A stretch of DNA of 64,000 nucleotides from Streptomyces sp. HD. GTDB lineage: Bacteria; Actinomycetota; Actinomycetes; Streptomycetales; Streptomycetaceae. Within the stretch, counting starts at the first letter, position 1. Each line of letters begins with the position of its first letter. The notes beneath the pieces are model-generated. The model was given only the letters and a program-made list of their open reading frames with translations, was not told where the DNA came from and made no database searches. The position numbers and the translations under genes are program-made. The stretch spans positions 62,001 to 126,000 of the forward strand of contig NZ_JAQMYP010000011.1 of NCBI RefSeq assembly GCF_028369295.1, in the 5' to 3' direction. Below are positions 26,075 through 42,126 of the stretch, in pieces.

Positions 26075-27022
26075 TCACTTCACCAGTCCGTGCTCCTTCG
26101 CGTAGGCGTTCGCCACGTCCTCGGGGTCCTTCTTGTCCTTGTCGACCTGCCGGTTCAGTTCGGTGAGCTGGGCGGTGGTCAGGGTGTTGCCGAGGCGGGC
26201 GAGGGCCTTGCGGACGGTGGAGTCGGCCTTGCGGTCGGCGATCAGGGGGACGACGTGCTGGCCGGGGATGAGGTTCTTGGGGTCGGTCAGCACCACCCAG
26301 CCGTTGGCCTGGATGTCCGTGTCCGTGGTGAAGAGGTTCGCCACGTCCACGTCGCCCTTCTTCAGGGCGCCCTTCACGAGTGGTCCGGAGGAGTCCAGTG
26401 ACTTGAACTCCTTGAACTCGACCCCGTAGACGTCCTTGAGGCCGACCGCGCCGACCTCTCGCTTCTTGACCTCGGGCGCCGCCCCGATCACCAGCTTGCC
26501 GTTCTGCTTCGTCAGGTCGGCGAGGGAGGTCAGGCCGTACTTCTCGGCCGTCTCGCGGGTGACGACGAAGGCGTCCGAGTCCTCGGCCATGCCGTACGGC
26601 AGCACCTGGAGGCCGCTCGGGAGCGCGATGGTGAGGGCGTTCTGCATCTCGCCCTCCTCCGTCGCCGTCGCCTTGGGGGCGACGTAGTGCAGCAGGGCGC
26701 CCTGGTACTCGGGGAGCAGGTCGATGTCGCCGCCCTTGAGCGCGGGGATGAGGATCTCGCGGGTGCCGAGGTTGGGGCGGACGGTGACCTTCACTCCGGC
26801 CGCGTCGAGTACGGCGGCGTAGAGGTAGCCGAGCACCTGGTTTTCGGTGAAGTTGGCGGTGCCGATGGTGAGGCCGCCCTTGCTGGAGCCGCCGCCGGAC
26901 CCGGCGGAGCCCCCGCCTTCGAGGGAGGTGATGCCGCTGGAGCAGGCGGCGAGGGCGGGGACGGAGGCGGCTGCGAGGAGGCCGCCGAGGAGCGTGCGTC
27001 GGTTCATCGAGTGACGGTTCAT
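26075..27022 (-). CDS. Osmoprotectant ABC transporter substrate-binding lipoprotein
   Basis: This 315-residue lipoprotein is the OpuAC/ProX-type receptor of a glycine betaine/choline/carnitine importer. The N-terminus carries RRTLLGGLLAAASVPALAAC, with a lipobox LAAC and twin arginines that may direct Tat export. The mature part begins with a Gly/Ser linker, then GLTIGTANFTENQVLGYLYA and LLPEYQGALLHYV, typical of the OpuC/OsmX group. It is the last gene of a four-gene operon running from 29369 down. The ligand cannot be told beyond quaternary-amine osmolytes. Confidence 0.9.
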   Translation of the reverse strand: MNRHSMNRRTLLGGLLAAASVPALAACSSGITSLEGGGSAGSGGGSSKGGLTIGTANFTENQVLGYLYAAVLDAAGVKVTVRPNLGTREILIPALKGGDIDLLPEYQGALLHYVAPKATATEEGEMQNALTIALPSGLQVLPYGMAEDSDAFVVTRETAEKYGLTSLADLTKQNGKLVIGAAPEVKKREVGAVGLKDVYGVEFKEFKSLDSSGPLVKGALKKGDVDVANLFTTDTDIQANGWVVLTDPKNLIPGQHVVPLIADRKADSTVRKALARLGNTLTTAQLTELNRQVDKDKKDPEDVANAYAKEHGLVK

Positions 27023-27032
27023 CGAATGGTCC

Positions 27033-27695
27033 CTAGGCAGTGCGGTGGCGGAAGAGGAAGCGCTGGAGGCCGGACAGGGCCAGGTCGAGGAGCACGGCGA
27101 CCACGGCGACGAGCACCGCCCCGCCGAGCACCTGCACCAGGTCGCGTTGGGCCAGGCCGTCGAAGACGTAGCGGCCCAGGCCGCCGAAGGAGACGTACGC
27201 GGCGATGGTGGCCGTGGCCACGACCTGGATCAGTGCCAGGCGCAGGCCCGTCATGATCAGCGGGAGGGCCAGGGGCAGCTCCACCTGGAGGAGGACCTGG
27301 TGACCGCGCATGCCCTGGCCGCGCGCCGCGTCCTTCACGTCCGGGTCGACGGCCGTCATCCCCGCGTAGGTGTTGGTGACGATCGCCGGGACCGCGAGGG
27401 CGACCAGCGCGACGTAGACCGGGAGCATGGACAGTCCGCCGGCCAGGAAGACCAGCACGACCAGGCCTACGGTCGGCAGGGCGCGGCCGAAGGACGCGAG
27501 GTTGATCGCGAGGAAGGCGCCCTTGCCGGTGTGGCCGATCAGCAGGCCGAGGGGGAGGCCGATCGCCGCCGCGATGAGCGTGGCGAGCAGGGAGTACTGG
27601 AGGTGTTCGGCGAGGCGGTGCGCGATGCCGTCCGGGCCGGTCCACTGCTCGCTGCCGACCAGCCAGGCGCCGAGGTTCTTGAAGAGTTCGTACAT
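27033..27695 (-). CDS. Osmoprotectant ABC transporter permease
   Basis: This 220-residue inner-membrane permease is one of two half-permeases of the osmolyte importer. Five to six helices are visible between residues about 30 and 210, with the EAA-type cytoplasmic loop DVKDAARGQGMRGHQVLLQV-like segment that contacts the ATPase. It begins two bases after the other permease gene ends and is followed within 11 bases by the binding-protein gene. The arrangement ATPase-permease-permease-receptor matches the OpuB/OpuC type rather than ProU. Confidence 0.9.
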   Translation of the reverse strand: MYELFKNLGAWLVGSEQWTGPDGIAHRLAEHLQYSLLATLIAAAIGLPLGLLIGHTGKGAFLAINLASFGRALPTVGLVVLVFLAGGLSMLPVYVALVALAVPAIVTNTYAGMTAVDPDVKDAARGQGMRGHQVLLQVELPLALPLIMTGLRLALIQVVATATIAAYVSFGGLGRYVFDGLAQRDLVQVLGGAVLVAVVAVLLDLALSGLQRFLFRHRTA

Positions 27696-27696
27696 G

Positions 27697-28338
27697 TCAG
27701 GCTCGCCGCCTCCGCCAGGGGGTCAGGACGTACTGGAGGGCGACCAGAGCTGCGTCCGCGACCACGGCCAGGAGCAGCGTGAGGACCACTCCGACGATCA
27801 CCGGGGTCGGGAAGTTGCGCTGGAAGCCGTCGGTGAAGAGCTGGCCCAGGCCGCCGTCGCCGATGTAGGTCGCGACCGAGACCAGGGAGATGGACATGAC
27901 GGTTGCGATCCGCACGCCGGCCATGATCACGGGGAGCGCGAGCGGGAACTCCACGGTGAGGAGGGTGCGCAGCGGGCGCGTGCCCATCGCCTTCGCCGCC
28001 TCCTTCGCCTTCACCGGGACCGAGTCCAGGCCCTCGACCGTGTTCCGGAGCAGGACCACCAGCGTGTAGACCGTCAGGCCGATGACGGTGGTGGTGCGGG
28101 TGAGGCCGGAGACCGGGAGCAGGAGTACGAAGATCGCGATCGACGGGATCGTGAACAGGACGTTCGACAGGCCCAGCAGGAAACCGCGCAGGGGGCGGAT
28201 CCGGTGGGCGATCACCGCGAGGGGCAGGGAGATCAGGACGCCCAGGAAGACGGCGGTGAGCGCGGCCTGGAGGTGGGAGATCGTCAGGGTGGTGAGGTCG
28301 TCGGTGTGGTCGCCTATCCACGACCAGTCGACGGTCAT
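27697..28338 (-). CDS. Osmoprotectant ABC transporter permease
   Basis: This 213-residue permease is homologous to its neighbour. It has about five membrane helices (ALTAVFLGVLISLPLAVIA, LLGLSNVLFTIPSIAIFVLL, TVIGLTVYTLVVLLRN and two C-terminal) and the loop VKAKEAAKAMGTRPLRTLL. Its ATG overlaps the stop codon of the ATPase gene (ATGA), so the two are translationally coupled. The two permeases presumably form a heterodimer. Confidence 0.92.
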   Translation of the reverse strand: MTVDWSWIGDHTDDLTTLTISHLQAALTAVFLGVLISLPLAVIAHRIRPLRGFLLGLSNVLFTIPSIAIFVLLLPVSGLTRTTTVIGLTVYTLVVLLRNTVEGLDSVPVKAKEAAKAMGTRPLRTLLTVEFPLALPVIMAGVRIATVMSISLVSVATYIGDGGLGQLFTDGFQRNFPTPVIVGVVLTLLLAVVADAALVALQYVLTPWRRRRA

Positions 28339-29369
28339 GCCGCCACCCGGGCTTCCGAGTGCGCCTGGCCCGCGTGCTCGTGGATGGCGTCGCGGGAGGT
28401 GACACCGGTGAGGACGCCGTCCGCGTCGACCCGGGCGATCAGGCCGGTGGGGGAGGCGATGGACTCGTTGAGCGCCGCGAGCAGGGAGTCGCCGTCCTTG
28501 AGCGGTCGTACGGGGATCTCGGTGTCCTGCGACGCCCAGTGGACGGGCCTGTTCGCCTCGTCCAGGACCAGGCTCCAGGTGTCCCCCTCCGGTGCCGGGC
28601 TCTGTGGGACGTCGGCGAGGGTCCGCAGGGACAGCAGCTTCAGGCCGCGCTCGGCGCCGAGGAAGTCGGCCACGAAGTCGTCGGCGGGGCGGGCGAGCAG
28701 TTCGGCGGGGGAGGCGCACTGGACGAGATGGCCGCCGGTGCGGAAGATCGCGATCTGGTCTCCGAGCCGTACGGCCTCGTCGACGTCGTGCGTGACGAAG
28801 ACGATGGTCTTGCTCAACTCCTTCTGCAGACGCAGGAGTTCGTCCTGGAGCTGGGTGCGCACGACCGGGTCGACCGCGCCGAACGGCTCGTCCATCAGCA
28901 GTACAGGCGGGTCGGCGGCGAGCGCGCGGGCGACGCCGACGCGCTGCTGCTGGCCGCCCGAGAGCTGGTGCGGGTAGCGGCGGCCGGTCTCGGCGGGGAG
29001 GCCAACGGTCTCCAGGAGCTCGGCGGCCTTCGCGCGTGCCTTGCGGCGGCTCCAGCCGAGCAGCAGCGGCACCGTGGCGATGTTGTCCAGCACCGTGCGG
29101 TGCGGGAACAGGCCCGCCTGCTGGATGACGTACCCGATGGAGCGGCGCAGCTCGGCGGCGTCCTGGCGGGTGACGTCCTGGCCGCCGACCTTGATGGTGC
29201 CGGAGGTCGGTTCCACCATCCGGTTGATCATCCGCAGGGTGGTCGTCTTGCCACAACCGGAGGATCCGACGAGGACGGTCACGCCGCCCTCCGGCATCTC
29301 CAGGGAGAGATCATGGACTGCTGTCGTGCCGTTGGGGAAGCGCTTGTGGACCGCGTCGAACTGGATCAT
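28335..29369 (-). CDS. Osmoprotectant ABC transporter ATPase with CBS domain
   Basis: This 344-residue ATPase drives import of glycine-betaine-like solutes. It has Walker A VGSSGCGKTTT, signature LSGGQQQRVGVARAL, Walker B LLMDEPFGAVDP and the H-loop FVTHDVDEA. The C-terminal part (about 275-335) is a CBS-type regulatory domain, which in OpuA-like transporters senses ionic strength. It is the first gene of the operon, with AAGGGA upstream of ATG 29369, and is divergent from the ammonia-lyase-like gene. Confidence 0.93.
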   Translation of the reverse strand: MIQFDAVHKRFPNGTTAVHDLSLEMPEGGVTVLVGSSGCGKTTTLRMINRMVEPTSGTIKVGGQDVTRQDAAELRRSIGYVIQQAGLFPHRTVLDNIATVPLLLGWSRRKARAKAAELLETVGLPAETGRRYPHQLSGGQQQRVGVARALAADPPVLLMDEPFGAVDPVVRTQLQDELLRLQKELSKTIVFVTHDVDEAVRLGDQIAIFRTGGHLVQCASPAELLARPADDFVADFLGAERGLKLLSLRTLADVPQSPAPEGDTWSLVLDEANRPVHWASQDTEIPVRPLKDGDSLLAALNESIASPTGLIARVDADGVLTGVTSRDAIHEHAGQAHSEARVAA

Positions 29370-29510
29370 GAGATGTCCCTTGCCCGGCTGTATAACGTCA
29401 TGCAGAGTTCTTGGTAGCTGAATAGGTTGTCAACGGGTTGGTGTAAATCCGAAGTAACGGATGACCGAAGGGCAAGACGTGATGTCCGGGTTGAGGGGAG
29501 TTTGGGCTTG

Positions 29511-31028
29511 ATGTCGTCTCGAATCGTGGACGCGCCGGAGGCCGTGCCCTCCGGCTACACCGGACTGGTCGTCCTCGACGGAATCGGGCTCGGCGTCGAG
29601 GGCGTCGCGCGCCTCGCCGACGGGACCGCGCGGCCGGTCCCGGCGACCGACGCGATGAAGCGGGCCGAGGAGTCCTGGGACGCCGCCCGCCTCATCGCCG
29701 CTACGGGCCGTGTCTACGGCCGTTCCACCGGAGTGGGCGCCAACCGGAACGAGGACGTGCCCACCGACGCCGCCGCCGAACACGGCCTGCGTCTGCTGCG
29801 CAGCCACGCCGGTGCCATCGGCGAGGAGCTGCCCGCCCGACAGGTCCGGGCCATGCTCGCCGTCCGCGCCAACCAGCTGCTGGCCGGCGGCGCGGGCCTG
29901 CGCCCCACCGTCATCACCGCCCTGTGCGAGGCATTGGGGAGCGGCGCCCACCCGGTCGTGAACGAGTTCGGCTCGGTCGGCACCGGCGACCTCGCGGCCC
30001 TGGCGCAGACCGGCCTCGCGCTGGCCGGCGAGCACCCCTGGCGCGGCTCCGGTGCGCCGCAGCCGCAGCCCCTCGACAACAACGACGCCCTCGCGTTCAT
30101 CAGCAGCAACGCCCTCACCCTCGGCCAGGCGGCCCTCGCCCTGCACGAACTGCGCGGCCTCGTCGCCGCCACCCAGGTCGTCGCCGCCCTGTCACTGCTC
30201 GCGGTCGACGGCTCCCACGAGGCGTACGCCGCCCCCGTGCACACCGCCCGGCCGCACCGGGGGAGCACCGAGGTCGCCCGCCGGATGCGGGAGCTGATCG
30301 GCGCCGAGGACCGCCCGACCCCTCCGCTGGGCCGGATCCAGGACCCGTACGGCTTCCGCTGTCTGCCCCAGATCCACGGCCCGGCGCACGATGCCGCCGA
30401 CGCCCTGGAGGAGGTGCTCGCGGTGGAGATCAACGCCGCCGCCGAGAACCCTCTTATCTCCCCCGAGGACATGGCGGCCTACCATCACGGCGGCTTCTAC
30501 CAGGCCCAACTCGCCCTCTCCCTGGACCACTTCAGGCTGGCCCTGACCCAGGTGGCGCGGCTGTCGACGTCCCGTCTGTCCACCCTGAACGAGCCCGCCT
30601 ACACCCGCCTCAAGCCCTTCCTCGCCGACCACGAGCCCGCCTCGTCCGGCGTGATGATCCTGGAGTACGCCGCCGCGGCCGCCCTCGGTGATCTGCGCGC
30701 CTTCTCCGCCCCCGCCTCGCTCGGCCACGCTGTACTCTCCCGGGGCGTGGAGGAGCAGGCCAGCTTCGCCTCGCTCGCCGCGCGGCAGACACTGCGTGCG
30801 TGCGGCGCGTACCGTCTCGTCGTCGGCTGTGAACTCGTCGCCGCCGTACGGGCGTTGCGCCAGCGCGGCCTCAGGCCCGACCCTGAGCTTCCGATCGGCC
30901 GGGCGATGGAGCTGGCCGAGTCGGTGCTCGACGACGACCCGGCCGACCGTCCGCTCACCGACGACGTGACGGCGGCGGCCGCACTGCTGGACCGGTTCAC
31001 GGAGATCTGGAGGGGGAGCGCGGCATGA
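29511..31028 (+). CDS. Histidine/aromatic ammonia-lyase-like protein lacking the MIO triad
   Basis: This 505-residue protein has the fold of the HAL/PAL family: Tyr69 in VYGRSTGVG, LDNNDALAFISSNALTLGQ, QDPYGFRCLPQIHGPA near residue 280 and NAAAENPLIS. However, the segment that normally reads GSVGASGDLAP reads GSVGTGDLAA (residues 154-162). The Ala-Ser-Gly triad that cyclises to the electrophilic MIO cofactor is absent and one residue is missing. It therefore should not act as a classical ammonia lyase. It overlaps the RpiR regulator gene by ATGA. The start is ATG 29511, after GAGGGGAG. The real role is unknown. Confidence 0.85.
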   Translation: MSSRIVDAPEAVPSGYTGLVVLDGIGLGVEGVARLADGTARPVPATDAMKRAEESWDAARLIAATGRVYGRSTGVGANRNEDVPTDAAAEHGLRLLRSHAGAIGEELPARQVRAMLAVRANQLLAGGAGLRPTVITALCEALGSGAHPVVNEFGSVGTGDLAALAQTGLALAGEHPWRGSGAPQPQPLDNNDALAFISSNALTLGQAALALHELRGLVAATQVVAALSLLAVDGSHEAYAAPVHTARPHRGSTEVARRMRELIGAEDRPTPPLGRIQDPYGFRCLPQIHGPAHDAADALEEVLAVEINAAAENPLISPEDMAAYHHGGFYQAQLALSLDHFRLALTQVARLSTSRLSTLNEPAYTRLKPFLADHEPASSGVMILEYAAAAALGDLRAFSAPASLGHAVLSRGVEEQASFASLAARQTLRACGAYRLVVGCELVAAVRALRQRGLRPDPELPIGRAMELAESVLDDDPADRPLTDDVTAAAALLDRFTEIWRGSAA

Positions 31029-31885
31029 GCGCGGACAGGAACACGGGCGGGACGGACAGCCCCGCCGCGCGGTTGCAGGCGCTCTTCGAGGGGCACCGGC
31101 TCACGCCGACCCAGCGGCGCATCGCCCACAGCATGGTGCGGCGGGCCGGCGACGTGCCCTTCCTGTCCAGCGTCGAACTGGCCGAGCTCGCCGGGGTCAG
31201 CCAGCCGTCCGTGACCCGCTTCGCCGTCGCCCTCGGCTTCGACGGCTACCCGGCGCTGCGCAAGCACCTGCGCGAGGTCGCACCCGTCGAGCAGGCGGCG
31301 GACACCGGCTCGTACAACGAGTACCAGCAGGCCGTCGAGGCCGAGATCGAGAACCTGCGGCATCTGGCGGAGGTGCTGGCCGACCCGCGCCCGGTGCAGA
31401 AGGCCGGACGGCTGCTCGCCGCCTCGCGTCCCCTGCCGGTGCTCGGTCTGCGCGCCGCCGCCTCCCAGGCGTACGGCTTCTCGTACTTCGCCGCCAAGGT
31501 CCATCCGGACGTACGGCTGCTGGACGAGGGCGGCACGATGATCCAGGACCGTATCGACGCCGCCGTACGGGCCGGCGCGAGCGCCCTGCTCTGCTTCGCA
31601 CTGCCCCGGCATCCGCGCGAGGTCGTGGACACCCTGGCGTATGCCAAGGAGGCCGGGCTGACGGTCGTCACCGTCGCCGACTCCGCGTTCGCGCCGGTCG
31701 CCAAGGTCTCCGACCTGCTGCTGCCCGCCGCCGTCGGCACCGGCCTTGCCTTCGACACGGCCTGCGCGCCGATGCTGCTGGGCCGGGTCCTGCTGGAGGC
31801 CATGTGCGACGACCTGCCGGACGCCCAGGCGCGGCTGGAGGAGTTCGACGCGCGGGCGGCGGCCCGGGGACTGTTCGTCGAGTGA
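31025..31885 (+). CDS. MurR/RpiR-family transcriptional regulator
   Basis: This 286-residue regulator has an N-terminal RpiR helix-turn-helix (about 20-95, LAELAGVSQPSVTRFAVALG) and a C-terminal SIS sugar-isomerase-like domain (about 125-265, ALLCFALPRHPREVVDTLAY) that usually binds phosphosugars. Its ATG overlaps the stop of the ammonia-lyase-like gene, so the two are coupled. This pairing is unusual and suggests that the regulator senses a compound linked to the partner protein's activity. Which genes it controls is not visible. Confidence 0.9.
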   Translation: MSADRNTGGTDSPAARLQALFEGHRLTPTQRRIAHSMVRRAGDVPFLSSVELAELAGVSQPSVTRFAVALGFDGYPALRKHLREVAPVEQAADTGSYNEYQQAVEAEIENLRHLAEVLADPRPVQKAGRLLAASRPLPVLGLRAAASQAYGFSYFAAKVHPDVRLLDEGGTMIQDRIDAAVRAGASALLCFALPRHPREVVDTLAYAKEAGLTVVTVADSAFAPVAKVSDLLLPAAVGTGLAFDTACAPMLLGRVLLEAMCDDLPDAQARLEEFDARAAARGLFVE

Positions 31886-32581: not shown

Positions 32582-32956
32582 TCAGACCTCCAGGTCCTCC
32601 TCGATCTTCTTCAGCTGGTGCCTGGCCATGGCGAGGTTGGCCCGCTTGGCGTCGAGGACCAGGTAGAGGAAGAGTCCGTTGCCCCCGCGCCCGGTGATCA
32701 GCCGGATCAGGTGGTACTGGTCGCTGAGGGTGATCAGGATGTCCTCGATGCCGCCCTTGAGGCCGAGGTGTTCCATCGTGCGCATCTTGGAGCGGACCAC
32801 GTCGGTGTTGCCCGCGGCGGCGACATTGAGGTCGAAGCTCTTGCTGCCGCCGAGCGTGCCGAGGGCCATGCCGCTGGTGTAGTCGACGAGCGCGACGCCG
32901 GTCGCACCCTCGATGGAGGCGAGGCATTCCTTCAGGGTGGTCTCGGTGTTGGCCAT
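32582..32956 (-). CDS. Roadblock/LC7 domain protein
   Basis: This 124-residue protein is a single Roadblock/LC7 domain of the MglB/CvnB kind, small dimeric proteins that usually bind or regulate Ras-like GTPases. The N-terminal helix LKECLASIEGATGVALVDYT and strands around GMALGTLGG and LFLYLVLD are typical. It closely resembles the product of 34348-34740. It is the last gene of a four-gene minus-strand cluster. ATG 32956 follows GAGAGG at the stop of the previous gene. No MglA/CvnD-type GTPase gene is nearby. Confidence 0.9.
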   Translation of the reverse strand: MANTETTLKECLASIEGATGVALVDYTSGMALGTLGGSKSFDLNVAAAGNTDVVRSKMRTMEHLGLKGGIEDILITLSDQYHLIRLITGRGGNGLFLYLVLDAKRANLAMARHQLKKIEEDLEV

Positions 32957-32970
32957 GATGGGGGTTCCTC

Positions 32971-33483
32971 TCAACTGTCCGTAGTGGTGCGCGCGTTGGC
33001 GGTGGTGCGGGTCGTGCGCGCGTTTCTCGTGCGGGTGGGCATGGGTTTGGTCTCCTTGGACTCCTTCGGCTCCTTGGCAGAGCTCTTTGCGGGGCTCCTG
33101 CGGGGCGGCGCCGCCTCCGCGTCGATGAGCTCGCCGATGCGGGCACCGGCGCGGCGGCCCTCCAGATGCAGTCGGCCGACGTTGACGCCGTCCTTGGCGA
33201 GCAGCGTCAGCACGGCGGTGTCGCCCGCGGCGTACGTCGCCACATAGCCGTCGGCCCCGCGCACCAGCAGTTCGCGGAAGTCGCCCCGGCCGGTCGCGTC
33301 CGTCATCCGCTGTGCGACACCGAGTGCGGCGGCGGTCAGCGCGGCGAGGCCGTCCGGTTCGACGCCAGGCGTGTCGTGGGCGAGGACGAGGCCGTCCACG
33401 CCGGCCGCGAGCGCCCCGGTCAGCTGGGGCACACGGGCTCTGAGCCGGCGGAACTCGTCGAGTAGCGGGGCCTCGGCCGCCAT
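32971..33483 (-). CDS. Roadblock/LC7 domain protein with basic tail
   Basis: This 170-residue protein has a Roadblock/LC7 domain (about 5-125; LLDEFRRLRARVPQLTGALA, GVDGLVLAHDTPGVEPDGLA, LLVRGADGYVATYAAGD) followed by a Lys/Arg/Thr-rich disordered tail (about 130-170) that could bind nucleic acid or acidic partners. GAGGAG precedes ATG 33483. It is the third gene of the cluster and ends 14 bases before the next Roadblock gene starts. Confidence 0.85.
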   Translation of the reverse strand: MAAEAPLLDEFRRLRARVPQLTGALAAGVDGLVLAHDTPGVEPDGLAALTAAALGVAQRMTDATGRGDFRELLVRGADGYVATYAAGDTAVLTLLAKDGVNVGRLHLEGRRAGARIGELIDAEAAPPRRSPAKSSAKEPKESKETKPMPTRTRNARTTRTTANARTTTDS

Positions 33484-33562
33484 CAGGTTTCTCCTCTCGG
33501 CGCGGGACCGCTGCGGCGGGCGCGGCACCCCGACCGGCTCGCGGTCCTCGAAGGGTTTGCGG

Positions 33563-34351
33563 TCAAAGGGCCTCCAGCGCATCCCTGACCCTCTTCAGCA
33601 GCGCGATGTAGGGATCGGCGGCGTCGGGTGGGTGGTCGTCCATGGGCGGCGGCTGCGAGGACACGAGCCCCGCCGCGGCCAGCCGCCGTATGTGCACCAG
33701 CGTGTGGAACGCCGGTCTGCCGAGCTCCCGCGCGATGTCCGTGGCCCGCCGCACGCCGTCCACCCTCGCGAGTACGGCGGCCTGCCGGGACGGGACCGCG
33801 GGGGCCGCCACCGGGTCGGCCCGGATCAGCGGCGCGGCGTCCGTCGCCGGGTCGGGCCAGATGCGGCGCAGCAGGGCGCGGCGGCGCAGCGTCTCGCGCT
33901 CCAGGTCGTCGACCGCCACGGGATGAACGCCGGCGAGCCAGTGCGCGGTGCCGTAGCGGAAGCGGCCGGGCGCGCTGCTGGGGGCGAGGGCGAAGTACGC
34001 GGCGTCGTACAGCGCGCTCACCTGGGCCAGCTCCAGCGCCCCCGGCGGTAGGCCGCGCCGCAGGAGCCGCCCCTCGTCGGCGTTGTCCTCGGCGTCCTGC
34101 CAGGTCTCGGCGTCGAGCGCGCCGTGGGTCGTCAGGAGCAGGCCGAGGCTGGGTGCGAGCGGGCTCTCGGCGTGCACCACCTGGCCCTCGACGAGGTGGA
34201 GCGCGCCGTGCTCACGGGCCAGCACGCCGGTGGCCCGCTCCTCCGCGAGCCGGGTCAGCATCGGCGAGACCACGCCCCGCGCCCGCTCCCGGGCCGCCGA
34301 CGCGTCCCGGACGGGCAGGCGCGGCGGCGGGGTGGTTCCGACCACGGTCAT
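33563..34351 (-). CDS. DUF4388-like (PATAN) regulatory protein
   Basis: This 262-residue soluble protein carries an N-terminal DUF4388-like domain (about 25-130; RATGVLAREHGALHLVEGQV then VHAESPLAPSLGLLL), a family found in bacterial signalling and gliding proteins. Its C-terminal part (about 180-245; VLARVDGVRRATDIARELGR, TLVHIRRLAAAGLV) looks like a winged-helix. Its ATG overlaps the stop of the upstream Roadblock gene (ATGA), so they are translated together. I infer it is a response or adaptor protein of the Roadblock system. Confidence 0.75.
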   Translation of the reverse strand: MTVVGTTPPPRLPVRDASAARERARGVVSPMLTRLAEERATGVLAREHGALHLVEGQVVHAESPLAPSLGLLLTTHGALDAETWQDAEDNADEGRLLRRGLPPGALELAQVSALYDAAYFALAPSSAPGRFRYGTAHWLAGVHPVAVDDLERETLRRRALLRRIWPDPATDAAPLIRADPVAAPAVPSRQAAVLARVDGVRRATDIARELGRPAFHTLVHIRRLAAAGLVSSQPPPMDDHPPDAADPYIALLKRVRDALEAL

Positions 34352-34740
34352 GCCAGCACCAGCCGTTCGGCCATCTCGCCCAGCCGGATGCGGGCCAGCG
34401 CGAGGTTGCCGTCCGCGCGGGCCAGCCACAGGTACAGCACCACGCTGCTGTCGAACGTCGTCGGCACGAACCGCAGCACGTGGTAGCTGTCCCGGTTGCT
34501 GAGGATCACGTCCTCGACCGGCGGATCCATGTCGTCGGAGCCGTCGGCCGGCCCGAACGCGTGCTGCTCGGCGGCCAGCCGTGCCAGCTCCGCGGCCTCG
34601 GCGGCCGCCGTCTCGTGGTCACCGCCCGGAGGGTCGCCCACGGTGCCCAGGGCCAGCCCGCTCGTCCAGTCGACCAGCGCCGCCCCCCGTGCACCGGGCA
34701 GCCTCATCGTCTCCAGCAAGCACTCGTCGATTCCGGGCAC
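34348..34740 (-). CDS. Roadblock/LC7 domain protein
   Basis: This 130-residue protein is a paralogue of the last gene of the cluster: GARGAALVDWTSGLALGTVG aligns with the GATGVALVDYTSGMALGTLG region there. It has an inserted acidic loop (about 40-75) and the same SYHVLRF/LYLWLARADGNLAL strands. The start is GTG 34740 with GGGAGGGGAG seven bases upstream. It is the first gene of the cluster and overlaps the DUF4388-like gene. Confidence 0.88.
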   Translation of the reverse strand: MPGIDECLLETMRLPGARGAALVDWTSGLALGTVGDPPGGDHETAAAEAAELARLAAEQHAFGPADGSDDMDPPVEDVILSNRDSYHVLRFVPTTFDSSVVLYLWLARADGNLALARIRLGEMAERLVLA

Positions 34741-34921: not shown

Positions 34922-36316
34922 TCAACGGCGCTTCGGCGCGGGCAGGGTGGTGAGTGAAGTGGCGTGCGCCCCTCCTGATTCGGCCACGATCTCGTCGAGC
35001 GACTGCGGCTCACGCACGGTCGCGAAGGTCATGCCCCCGGCGTCGTCGGACGCGAAGCCGTAGATGCCCGGCCGGGCGAGGGAGTTGTAGGCGTAGTGGT
35101 GCGCGAAGTAGTACGCCCCCGTGTCCGCCGCCGCCGCGAAGTCCCCCTGCTCCAGCAGCGGCAGCGCGCACCCCTCGGCCAGCAGGTCGCCCGAGAAGCA
35201 GGCCGGCCCCGCCACGTCCTGCACCACGGCCGGCCCCTCCTTCGGGCGCCCCTTGCCGTCGTACGCCGCGATCCGCAGCGGCCAGCTCCCCGGCGCGTAC
35301 ACCGTCCGCGTCGCCACCTGCACCCCCGCGTGCGTGATCGCCACCGGCCGCCCGCCCGCGCTCTTGGCGTACTCGACCCGCGCCACGACCGTGCCGTGCT
35401 TGGCCAGCAGCGACCGGCCGAACTCCGTGACCAGCCCGTAGCGGCCGTCGAACAGCCCCGGCACCGCCTCGCTCAGCAGCCGCGCGTACTGCGCGTACGT
35501 CGGCGCGGTGGCGTCCGAGGCGAAATTGACCGGCAGCCCGCCGCCGATGTCGAGCGTGTCGATCTGCCGCCGCCCGATCCGCCGGTTGATCTCCTCGGCG
35601 AGGGCGTACGTCTCCGCGACCCCCTGCGTCATCAGTGACAGCGGGATGCCCTGCGAGCCGGTGTGCGCATGCAGCCGGGTCAGCCACGGCCGGTCCTGAT
35701 ACGCCCGCACGACCCATTCCCGCGCCCCCTCGTCCCGCAGCGCCACCCCGAACTTCGACGTCGCCGTCGCCGTGGACGTCGCCTCGATGGAACCCCCGCC
35801 GACCTGCGGGTTCACCCGGATCCCGAGCGGCGAGCGACTCGTGGCCGACCTCACCAGAGCGTCGATACGGTCCAGCTCCTGCGGGTTGTCCGCGTTGACG
35901 GCGATGCCCAGCGCCAGCGCCTCCCGCAGCTCGGCCGGGGTCTTGGCCGGCGAGTCCAGCACCGTCATCTCCGGACGCAGCCCCGCCGCCCGTGCCAGCG
36001 CCAGCTCGCCCGGGCTCGCCACCTCCGCCCCGATGCCCTCCTCGCGCAGTAGTCGCAGCACCGGCACCAGCGGGGTCGCCTTCACCGCGAAGGCGTGCAG
36101 CACGGGCGTCCCCGGCGCCGCCACCGCCTCGAACGCCGCCCGCAGCGCCGCCGCCGACTCCCGGATGCCGGTGACGTCCAGCAGGCCGACGATGGGGGAG
36201 TCGGGCCCGAGCAGCCCCTGCTCCACGGCCGCCCGCACCGCTTCGTCCCGCCGCGCCGCCCGGTCGGCGTCATGCGCCGGGATCGCCAATTCGTTGCCCA
36301 CAACATCCCCCGTCAT
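34922..36316 (-). CDS. Diaminopimelate-decarboxylase-like PLP protein
   Basis: This protein of about 464 residues belongs to fold-type III PLP decarboxylases (LysA/SpeC2 group). Visible are the PLP lysine in HAFAVKATPLV, HTGSQGIP, the Gly loop TLDIGGGLPVNF, TEFGRSLLAK in place of the usual EPGR, CFSGDLLAEG and the C-terminal DTGAYYFAHHYAYNSL. It is probably not the housekeeping LysA, because the motifs diverge and no lysine genes adjoin; a decarboxylase of another amino acid is likely. The start is uncertain: ATG 36316 is taken, but ATG 36334 is possible and neither has a good ribosome site. It is divergent from hutU. Confidence 0.82.
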   Translation of the reverse strand: MTGDVVGNELAIPAHDADRAARRDEAVRAAVEQGLLGPDSPIVGLLDVTGIRESAAALRAAFEAVAAPGTPVLHAFAVKATPLVPVLRLLREEGIGAEVASPGELALARAAGLRPEMTVLDSPAKTPAELREALALGIAVNADNPQELDRIDALVRSATSRSPLGIRVNPQVGGGSIEATSTATATSKFGVALRDEGAREWVVRAYQDRPWLTRLHAHTGSQGIPLSLMTQGVAETYALAEEINRRIGRRQIDTLDIGGGLPVNFASDATAPTYAQYARLLSEAVPGLFDGRYGLVTEFGRSLLAKHGTVVARVEYAKSAGGRPVAITHAGVQVATRTVYAPGSWPLRIAAYDGKGRPKEGPAVVQDVAGPACFSGDLLAEGCALPLLEQGDFAAAADTGAYYFAHHYAYNSLARPGIYGFASDDAGGMTFATVREPQSLDEIVAESGGAHATSLTTLPAPKRR

Positions 36317-36382
36317 GCCGTTGTACGAGCCCATGCATCCAGCCAAACACCCGTGACGCGCCCGCGCTGCCTCACCGATGTA

Positions 36383-36411: not shown

Positions 36412-36477
36412 GTGAATATCCGTCTCAACAGTTCCATCCCCGACAGTTCGCAGTCACAGTCCGCTGGGAGGCAGACC

Positions 36478-38138
<1,661 letters not shown>

Positions 38139-38142
<4 letters not shown>

Positions 38143-39464
38143 CTCAGTACTCGGGCGGGCACGGCAACTCTCCGGTGAGGACCGGGGATTCGTCGCCGGG
38201 CGCGGGTTCGGCTGTGCCCACCTTCGCCCGATCCCAGCCCGGCGGCGCCTCCTTCCACGAGATGTGGCGCGAGCTGCTTCCCATCGGCAGGCACCCCGCC
38301 TCCCACGGCTACCGGCGCTTCGCCTGGACCGGTGTCGACCTCGACTGCCGGGCCTGGTTCAAGGACCAGGCCGAGGCACGCGGGCTCACCTACGAGGTCG
38401 ACCGCAACGGCAACCAGTGGGCCTGGCTCGGCGACCCCGCAGCCGGGGACGCCGTCGTCACCGGGTCGCATCTCGACTCCGTTCCGGACGGGGGCGCCTT
38501 CGACGGGCCCCTGGGCGTCGTCTCCTCCTTCGCCGCGCTCGACGAACTGCGCGGCAGGGGCGTGGAGCTCGCCAAGCCCCTCGCCATCGTCAACTTCGGC
38601 GACGAGGAGGGCGCCCGGTTCGGGCTCGCCTGTGTCGGGTCGCGGCTCACCGCCGGGCAGCTCACCGTGGAGAACGCCCACCGGCTGACCGACGGGGACG
38701 GGGTCAGCCTGCCCCGGGCCATGGAGGCCGCCGGGTACGACCCCGAGACCATCGGCGCCGACCCGGAACGGCTCGCCCGCATCGGTGCCTTCGTAGAACT
38801 GCACGTCGAGCAGGGCCGGGCCCTCGACCTGTCCGGCGACCGGGTCGGCATCGCCAGCGCCATCTGGCCGCACGGCCGGTGGCGGTTCGACTTCCGGGGC
38901 GAGGCCAACCATGCGGGGACCACCCGGCTCGTGGACCGGCGCGACCCCATGCTGTCGTACGCCGAGACGGTGCTCGCCGCCCGCCGGGAGGCCGAACTCG
39001 CCGGTGCCGTGGCCACCTTCGGCAAGATCGCCGTCGAGCCCAACGGTGTCAACGCCATCCCCTCCCTGGTGCGCGGCTGGCTCGACTCCCGGGCCGAGGA
39101 CCAGGCGAGCCTCGACCGTGTGGTCGGCGGCATCGAGAAGGCCGCCCGGGAGTACGCGGCGGCCCACGGCATCGACCTCGACGTCGTCCGGGAGTCCTTC
39201 ACGCCCGTCGTCGAGTTCGACCACGCCCTGCGCGACGAACTGGGCCGCATCCTGGGCAAGGACACCGACATCACCGTCCCCGTCCTGGGTACCGGTGCCG
39301 GACACGACGCCGGAATCCTGTCCGGGACCATCCCGACGGCCATGCTGTTCGTACGCAACCCCACGGGCGTCTCGCACTCCCCGGCCGAGTTCGCCGCCGA
39401 GGACGACTGCGTGGCCGGGGTCCTCGCACTCGCCGACGTACTGGAAGGGCTGGCCCGCAGGTGA
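38139..39464 (+). CDS. M20-family amidohydrolase of the hut operon (annotated type: allantoate amidohydrolase)
   Basis: This 441-residue metallopeptidase-like hydrolase resembles allantoate amidohydrolase/N-carbamoyl-L-amino-acid hydrolase. Di-metal ligands are visible: His/Asp in [20 protein letters not shown], Glu pair in [11 protein letters not shown], His in [10 protein letters not shown] and His near the C-terminus in GAGHDAG. It sits between hutU and hutF with overlaps at both ends. From this context I infer that it acts as N-formylglutamate deformylase in place of HutG, releasing glutamate and formate. The overlap GTG 38139 is the start. Confidence 0.88.
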
Positions 39465-40822
39465 CATCGAAGACCTACTGGCTGGAGCACGCCTGGCTCG
39501 ACACCCACGTCGAGCCGGGTGTGGCCCTGACCGTGTCCACCAGCGGCTCCGCCGCGGAGGCGGACGGCCGCATCACCGCCGTCCGCACGGACGTCCCCGC
39601 CCCGCCGCCCGGCGCCGAGGTCCTGCGCGGACTGACGCTCCCCGGCCTGGCCAACGCCCACTCGCACGCCTTCCACCGCGCCCTGCGCGGCACCGTCCAG
39701 GTCGGCTCCGGCACCTTCTGGACCTGGCGCGAGACCATGTACGCCACGGCCGCCCGGCTCACCCCGGAGACCTACCACGCCCTCGCCCGCGCCGTGTACG
39801 CCGAGATGGCGCTGGCCGGGATCACCGCGGTCGGCGAGTTCCACTACGTCCACCACGCCCCGGGCGGTACCCCGTACGCCGACCCCAACGCGATGGGCGA
39901 GGCCCTCATCGCGGCCGCCGCGGACGCCGGCATCCGCATCACCCTCCTCGACACCGCCTACCTGTCCTCCGGCTTCGGACAGCCGCCCAACACCCACCAG
40001 CTCCGCTTCTCCGACGGCGACGCCGACACCTGGGCCGAACGCTGTTCAGTTCTCAAGGAACGGGATCACGCACGGATCGGAGCGGCGATCCACTCCGTAC
40101 GGGCCGTGCCCGCCGACCAGTTGGAGACCGTGGCGCGGTGGGCCGAGGAGCGGCGGGCCCCGCTCCATGTGCACCTGTCCGAGCAGACCGCCGAGAACGA
40201 GGCGTGCCTGGAGGTCCACGGCTGCACCCCGACCCAGCTCCTCGCCCTGCACGGTGTCCTCGGACCGCGCACCACCGGCGTCCACAACACCCACCTCACC
40301 GCCGAGGACGTCTCCCTCATCGGCGGCAGCGGCACCGGCACCTGTATGTGCCCGACCACCGAGCGGGACCTCGCGGACGGCATCGGACCCGCCGTCGCCC
40401 TGCAGAACGAGGGCTCCCCGCTGTCCCTCGGTTCCGACAGCCACGCCGTCATCGACTTGCTCGAAGAGGCGCGCGCGATGGAGCTCAACGAGCGGCTGCG
40501 CACCCGCACCCGGGGCCACTGGACCGCCGCCGCTCTGCTGCGGGCCGCCTCGGCCGACGGACACGCCGCCCTCGGCTGGGACGACGCCGGCACCCTGGAG
40601 CCAGGCGCCCGCGCCGACTTCACGACGATCGCGCTCGACTCGGTCAGGACGGCAGGGCCGCTTCCGCGGCTCGGGGCCGAGACGGCCGTATTCGCCGCGT
40701 CGGCAGCAGACGTGTCGCATACGGTCGTGGCAGGTCGGCACGTCGTACGGGACGGGGTCCACACCCTCGTACCGAATGTGCCGAGGGCCCTCGCGGACGC
40801 CGTCGAAGCCCTGCGCGGATGA
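39461..40822 (+). CDS. hutF: Formimidoylglutamate deiminase
   Basis: This 453-residue amidohydrolase-superfamily enzyme removes the imino nitrogen of N-formimino-L-glutamate to give N-formyl-L-glutamate. Metal ligands are the HxH in [12 protein letters not shown], His in [10 protein letters not shown] and the Asp in [20 protein letters not shown] and [12 protein letters not shown] are family marks. GTG 39461 overlaps the upstream stop codon by GTGA. With hutI downstream, it indicates the five-step histidine pathway through formylglutamate. Confidence 0.93.
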
Positions 40823-40911: not shown

Positions 40912-42126
40912 ATGAGCAACGCGACGACCGTCAGCCCCGCCCACTCCGCGAGCACCGCAAGCACGCTCATCACCAACATCGCCGCCCTGGTCACCAACGA
41001 CCCCTCCCTCGGTGACAATTCCCCCCTCGGACTGATCCAGGACGCGGCCGTCGTCATCGAAGGCGACCGCGTCGCGTGGACCGGTGATCAAAGCAAAGCA
41101 CCCGCCACTGACAATCGGGTCGACGCAGGCGGCCGGGCGGTCGTCCCCGGCTTCGTGGACTCCCACTCCCACCTCGTCTTCGCGGGCGACCGGACGCAGG
41201 AGTTCAACGCCCGGATGTCGGGGCGGCCGTACAGCGCGGGCGGCATCCGCACCACGGTCGCGGCCACGCGGGCGGCGAGCGACGAGGAACTGGAAGCCAA
41301 CCTCACCCACTACCTCGCCGAGGCCCTCCGCCAGGGCACCACCACCTTCGAGACCAAGTCCGGCTACGGCCTGACCGTCGAGGACGAGGCCCGCGCCCTG
41401 CGCATCGCCACCGCCCACACCGCCGAGGTCACCTACCTCGGCGCCCACATCGTCCCGCCGGACTTCGCCGACGACCCGGCCGGCTACGTCGCCCTCGTCA
41501 CCGGCGAGATGCTCGACGCCTGTGCGCCGTACGCCCGTTGGGTCGACGTCTTCTGCGAGAAGGGCGCCTTCGACGGCGACCAGGCCCGCGCGATCCTCAC
41601 CGCCGGCAAGGCCAAGGGCCTGCACCCCCGCGTCCACGCCAACCAGCTCACCTACGGCCCCGGCGTCCAGCTGGCCGTCGAACTCGACGCGGCCAGCGCC
41701 GACCACTGCACCCACCTCACCGACGCGGACGTCGACGCCCTCGCAGGCGGCCGTACGGTCGCCACCCTGCTCCCCGGCGCCGAGTTCTCCACCCGCGCCC
41801 AGTGGCCGAACGCCCGCCGCCTGCTCGACGCGGGCGTCACCGTGGCCCTCTCCACCGACTGCAACCCGGGCTCGTCCTTCACCTCCTCCGTCCCGTTCTG
41901 CATCGCGCTGGCGGTGCGGGACATGGGGATGACCCCGGACGAGGCGCTCTGGTCCGCCACGGCGGGCGGCGCCGCGGCCCTCCGTCGCGACGACATCGGC
42001 CGCCTCACCCCGGGCGCCCGCGCGGACCTGATCCTCCTCGACGCCCCGAGCCATGTGCACCTGGCGTACCGGCCGGGCGTGCCGCTGGTCAGCGAGGTCT
42101 GGCGGCGGGGCGTGCGCGAGGCCTGA
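40912..42126 (+). CDS. hutI: Imidazolonepropionase
   Basis: This 404-residue amidohydrolase opens imidazolone-propionate to formiminoglutamate. The metal site is in [13 protein letters not shown], with [19 protein letters not shown] and the conserved STDCNPGSS loop. Two starts are possible: ATG 40819, which overlaps the hutF stop (ATGA) and would add 31 Pro/Ala/Asp-rich residues, or ATG 40912, which has AAGGA five bases upstream. The latter gives the usual length and is taken here. This is the last gene of the hut operon. Confidence 0.93.

Follow-up and report, generated by a model that had tools for sequence, protein, structure and literature searches.

The window, a 64-kb stretch of the genome of Streptomyces sp. 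HD, carries the gene for a protein of the aromatic-amino-acid-lyase family, P0001, together with a divergent ABC importer, an RpiR-type regulator and a set of hut genes (Table 1). The importer is complete and of the betaine type; it occupies 26075-29369, directly upstream of the lyase, and had been missed in the first-pass annotation. The overlap with the RpiR gene, in contrast, had been noted there and amounts to 4 bp (ATGA, 31025-31028) in the window; the spacing varies in relatives. Between the regulator and the hut genes lies a conservon-like gene run (32582-34740, minus strand), which includes Roadblock/LC7-looking small proteins, and a PLP decarboxylase with the DAP/arginine decarboxylase fold (34922-36346, minus strand), which scores below the lysA cut-off, is divergent from hutU and has a position next to hutU that is conserved in most Streptomyces loci.

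Table 1. Features of the lyase locus and the hut genes in the window.
Feature	Coordinates	Strand	Remarks
Substrate-binding lipoprotein, quaternary-amine family (OpuAC)	26075..27022	-	PF04069, 182 bits
ABC importer permease 2, choline/glycine-betaine type	27033..27695	-	PF00528; best NCBIfam match is choline permease TIGR03416
ABC importer permease 1	27697..28338	-	ORF; conserved with the lyase
ABC importer ATPase, ProV/OpuC type	28335..29369	-	TIGR01186 (proV), 310.7 bits, just below cut-off 326.6; linked to the lyase
Divergent control region, importer/lyase	29370..29510	.	141 bp; conserved block and imperfect inverted repeat CTGYAT-N6-ATGCAG (about 29388-29405)
P0001, MIO-free aromatic-amino-acid-lyase family protein	29511..31028	+	505 aa; predicted hercynine (N-alpha-trimethyl-L-histidine) trimethylamine-lyase
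MIO loop coding region	29970..29999	+	G154-S-V-G157-T158-G159-D160-L-A-A; Ala-Ser-Gly missing; one residue shorter than in HAL
RpiR-type regulator	31025..31885	+	PF01418, 41.9 bits; begins inside the lyase stop codon
HutU, canonical urocanate hydratase	36412..38142	+	TIGR01228, 900 bits; thiourocanate hydratase model, 642 of 930
M20-family amidohydrolase, probable N-formylglutamate amidohydrolase	38139..39464	+	NF006770, 660 bits; role suggested by position between hutU and hutF
HutF, formimidoylglutamate deiminase	39461..40822	+	NF006681, 704 bits; TIGR02022, 564 bits
HutI, imidazolonepropionase	40912..42126	+	TIGR01224, 370 bits, above cut-off 298

P0001 is an intact, full-length product (the translation of 29511-31028) that matches PF00221 (Lyase_aromatic) with 374.8 bits (E 7e-112), placing it within the family and its fold, and it carries the landmarks VYGRSTGVG (residues 68-76), RCLPQIHG and NAAAENPL. 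On the hutH equivalog models it scores 286 bits, against cut-offs of 539 (TIGR01225) and 524 (NF006871). The Ala/Cys-Ser-Gly triad, which MIO-dependent ammonia-lyases (HAL, PAL and TAL) require, is absent: the loop, FGSVGTGDLAAL (GSVGTGDLA), is one residue shorter than GSVGASGDLAPL, and in an alignment with 16 MIO-bearing HALs and tyrosine aminomutase, Thr158-Gly159 stands where these have Ala-Ser-Gly. Translation and alignment thus agree with the first-pass annotation, which had described retained HAL/PAL landmarks, a missing triad and one lost residue, and had correctly read the DNA at 29979-29987 as ggc acc ggc. A structure prediction of P0001 with 22 close orthologues reached a pLDDT of 44, too poor to use.

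The residues G154, S155, V156, G157, T158, G159 and D160 are invariant in 22 Streptomyces orthologues, and the triad is missing from all divergent family members read. The dN/dS of the lyase is 0.11-0.17, similar to that of HutU. An absence of decay had been claimed for the gene from its lack of frameshifts and stops; the intact reading frame, the dN/dS and the invariant loop uphold this and rule out a pseudogene, and on the sequence record the family is real and under selection. In a scan of GTDB genomes, the best 80 of 138 Streptomyces loci were kept. Members clearly above the level of HutH occur in about 78 of 198 genomes (sample of the order, counted by hand); other actinobacterial orders also carry members, as seen in a phylum-wide sample. 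The search proposed earlier, for relatives that share the deletion and adjoin rpiR genes, found such relatives: where close relatives had at least 17 kb, 63 of 66 were accompanied by RpiR, 59 by HutU and 52 by the importer.

The control region between the importer and the lyase contains a long invariant block, TTGCCCGG..ATGCAGAGTTCT, in an alignment of 20 loci; a promoter and terminator scan of this region found none. Its inverted repeat, CTGYAT-N6-ATGCAG, is a plausible candidate for the RpiR operator of both importer and lyase.

The importer is a recurrent companion of the MIO-free enzymes: binding protein and permease were found in the stretch read around 23 of 32 diverse members, against none of 20 actinobacterial HutH loci (Fisher p 8e-8, to be taken only as a guide, since the rows are related). 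Neither importer nor hutU was nearby in the stretch read for four members (L118, L121, L123 and L133). The importer has the same subunit families as EgtUV, OpuC and ProX, and the nearest solved structures of its binding protein are EgtUC and ProX; unlike these, it keeps the aromatic cage only in part. At the EgtU positions F293, Y337, Y341, Y419 and Y443 (binding-site residues described in PMC9732360), the window protein has Tyr, Ala, Asp, Phe and Gln, and is thus aromatic at two of the five (Tyr at F293, Phe at Y419). Opposite the invariant Gly244 of EgtU, phmmer places Phe58, whereas MAFFT aligns that end otherwise. The Asp is fixed throughout the derived actinobacterial clade, with an Arg beside it, while most of the cage is kept in the early-branching L176 and in the ergothionase-side L180, L184 and L148. 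Because the cage has changed in the branch of the window, the Streptomyces ligand may not be fully quaternary; the altered cage would leave several degrees of methylation possible, and a quaternary ligand does not appear assured for the window's cluster.

As previously remarked, the hut genes within the 64-kb window do not include hutH. A canonical HutH (GSLGCSGDLAPL) is encoded on another contig of the same genome, its MIO triad being the variant but functional-looking Cys-Ser-Gly, not Ala-Ser-Gly. The loop and the hutH score of P0001, and the presence of this genuine HutH, rule out that P0001 is the ordinary HutH of the hut operon. The two proteins share PF00221 and the equivalents of HAL Tyr53, His83, Gln277, Tyr280, Arg283, Phe329 and Glu414, and P0001 probably supplies the same Hut pathway; it differs from HutH in the lost triad, the shorter loop, the replacement of Asn195 by Ser, its score far below the curated hutH cut-off and its linkage to a betaine-type importer.

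The type of hydratase encoded nearby bears on the product. NCBIfam holds separate models for urocanate hydratase and thiourocanate hydratase (cut-off 930); the HutU proteins near family members score 875-942 bits on the former and 626-690 on the latter, and the HutU of every actinobacterial cluster tested is canonical. As a control, the HutU homologue beside an ergothionase-clade enzyme of Burkholderia (L137) is recognized as thiourocanate hydratase with 1044 bits. A canonical HutU argues for urocanate as the product and hence for a sulfur-free substrate, of which hercynine is the obvious trimethylated candidate. EgtD is present in the genome, so that hercynine also arises natively, as an intermediate. 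In an Arthrobacter plasmid (L134), importer, HutU and lyase follow in a row, adjoined by HutF and the amidohydrolase. A single strand of L176 carries the genes for RpiR, a sodium symporter, HutH, the importer, the MIO-free lyase, the amidohydrolase and HutU, and L178 and L182 hold HutH and the MIO-free lyase within one hut cluster. The arrangements in L134 and L176 make the MIO-free enzyme look like a second entry to urocanate, and the simplest reading is that there are two routes, one from histidine via HutH and the other from an imported histidine derivative via the MIO-free enzyme. Enzymes using trimethylamine were not seen among the ten scanned neighbors of divergent members.

Ergothionase (PDB 6s7j and 6s7q) is the third-best PDB match of P0001, aligning end to end (6s7j, E 1.6e-43) and with the identical one-residue deletion in the loop. 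PMC13405746, citing Maurer et al. (2019), describes it as a HAL homologue devoid of MIO, with ergothioneine as the source of the trimethylamine it releases. The first-pass annotation had left P0001 a choice between a non-enzymatic role and new chemistry; this dichotomy does not hold, as ergothionase, whose chemistry is known, has the same deletion. A maximum-likelihood tree of 54 proteins, computed from an alignment stripped of the loop columns, has a single branch (support 83/94, rising to 100/99 without one odd Rhizobium sequence, L144) that sets all 37 MIO-free rows apart. P0001 and 23 further actinobacterial rows form a clade of their own (24 rows, 100/100), and ergothionase and its proteobacterial relatives form another (100/100), with P0001 outside it.

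The MIO-free enzymes mostly share a Phe to Val replacement (Val75, in TGVG) and Ser in place of HAL Asn195 (Ser198). HAL Tyr53, Gln277, Arg283, Phe329 and Glu414 are kept across them with few exceptions, and the equivalent of His83 is kept in both the actinobacterial and the ergothionase clades; P0001 itself retains Tyr69 (HAL Tyr53), His99, Gln277, Arg283, Phe329 and Glu414. From what is established for HAL, the retained equivalents of Glu414 and His83 argue for an imidazole substrate. P0001 is thus like the ergothionases (Treponema denticola, 6s7j/6s7q; Burkholderia sp. HME13) in having a HAL fold without MIO, the same loop deletion, Ser for HAL Asn195, TGVG and the imidazole-side Glu and His; it is unlike them in belonging to a separate clade, in having at the basic position 79 an Arg where the ergothionase clade has Lys (Lys63), in the clade-specific Glu385 and Glu312, and in adjoining canonical HutU, where L137 adjoins thiourocanate hydratase. 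Lyases of the window's own branch have His residues preceding Phe329.

Some sequences from this part of the tree deserve separate mention. L144 (Rhizobium anhuiense plasmid, NZ_CP098801.1, around 269334) has the loop GSVG-YLIATS, lacking the triad and the next Asp; its HAL Phe329 is replaced, its gene directly follows a betaine-type ABC importer, and it branches outside the other MIO-free enzymes. On Sinorhizobium meliloti pSymA (L136) and other rhizobial plasmids, triad-less proteins of the ergothionase clade are labelled hutH in several public records. On a Paracoccus saliphilus plasmid (L138, NZ_CP067141.1), an ergothionase-clade MIO-free enzyme, possibly another hercynine lyase, lies directly 3' of a hut operon that is complete and includes both a HutH and a canonical HutU.

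MIO is needed to expel ammonia, whereas trimethylamine, a far better leaving group, is eliminated without it. We consider it probable, with some reserve, that P0001 is a lyase of the HAL fold that, without MIO, removes a methylated amine, likeliest trimethylamine, from an N-alpha-methylated histidine, likeliest hercynine, to yield urocanate. The substrate would be taken up by the divergent OpuC/EgtU-type importer; P0001 would cleave hercynine (N,N,N-trimethyl-L-histidine) to urocanate and trimethylamine, the trimethylammonium group leaving without an electrophilic MIO, aided by Tyr69 (HAL Tyr53), Arg283 and the imidazole-side Glu414 and His99; and urocanate would proceed to glutamate via HutU, HutI, HutF and the amidohydrolase. 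Both divergent units are probably regulated by the RpiR protein of the overlapping gene, which would act at the conserved inverted repeat. In releasing trimethylamine from a quaternary amine, such an enzyme would resemble choline TMA-lyase CutC and carnitine oxygenase CntA; the proteins and the chemistry, a glycyl radical in CutC and a Rieske oxygenase in CntA, are unrelated.

The changed importer raises the question whether P0001 acts instead on a histidine with fewer methyl groups or another N-substituent (monomethyl- or dimethyl-histidine, or histidine itself), again yielding urocanate, with the importer Asp recognizing a protonated amine. In the derived clade, an invariant Asp replaces one of the aromatic cage residues of the binding protein and adjoins an Arg, and the lyase has His residues ahead of Phe329; these features, like the canonical HutU, are in keeping with this. 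Cage and His residues are, however, a single evolutionary change seen many times, and not independent evidence. As ammonia and simple amines are far more difficult to expel without MIO, as a canonical HutH already exists in the genome (and, in L176, within the same operon), and as the early-branching L176 retains most of the aromatic cage, we hold this to be unlikely. Acidic residues occur in some choline-binding pockets, so that hercynine remains the likeliest substrate.

It is likewise improbable that P0001 is itself an ergothionase, converting ergothioneine to thiourocanate and trimethylamine. Homology and the common MIO deletion speak for it, as does the ergothioneine transporter EgtUC as nearest solved relative of the binding protein, but P0001 stands outside the ergothionase clade with 100/100 on each side, its linked hydratases are canonical HutU and not thiourocanate hydratase, the EgtU cage residues are not kept, and the Lys63 of the ergothionase clade is replaced by Arg. 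A narrower version of the less-methylated substrate, confined to the derived Streptomyces clade, appears quite improbable: here an MIO-independent lyase would expel ammonia or a simple methylamine from histidine or partly methylated histidine, a joint change in the binding protein (its Asp) and in the lyase (the His-His motif preceding Phe329) having led there from an ancestral system for trimethylhistidine. A regulatory pseudo-enzyme partnering RpiR, which the missing MIO and the overlap with the regulator gene might suggest, is very unlikely indeed, given that the active-site residues are kept across the clade, that the linked genes include not just RpiR but also the importer and the hut catabolic genes, and that a catalytically active MIO-free homologue is known (PMC13405746). 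A sequencing or assembly error concealing Ala-Ser-Gly, offered earlier as a possible refutation, is excluded, the loop being fixed in every family member read, across independently sequenced genomes, and nothing having been found in its favor.

If hercynine lyase activity is the correct reading, the locus represents an undescribed actinobacterial route for the uptake and breakdown of a methylated histidine such as hercynine, which is a fungal and bacterial metabolite. A large branch now labelled histidine ammonia-lyase would be set apart from that function, and a second MIO-free lineage would become available for studying how the HAL fold can function when its cofactor is missing. Hercynine cleavage would further yield trimethylamine, a volatile signal in Streptomyces, where it is an airborne trigger of exploration (PMC5207766) and the genes for its production are not known (PMC12211087). 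The open-access literature searched contained no description of a hercynine lyase, and nothing beyond ergothionase; branch, substrate and pathway appear to be undescribed there.

A second type of MIO-free lyase occurs in Streptomyces as divergent paralogues of 52-60% identity (L115-L120, L127-L129), which mostly adjoin a binding protein; some genomes carry both types. In the loci read, hutU is absent beside the conservon-type paralogues, and in L119 a conservon-like set (histidine-kinase-like, Roadblock/LC7 and ATP-binding proteins) separates the binding protein from the permeases.
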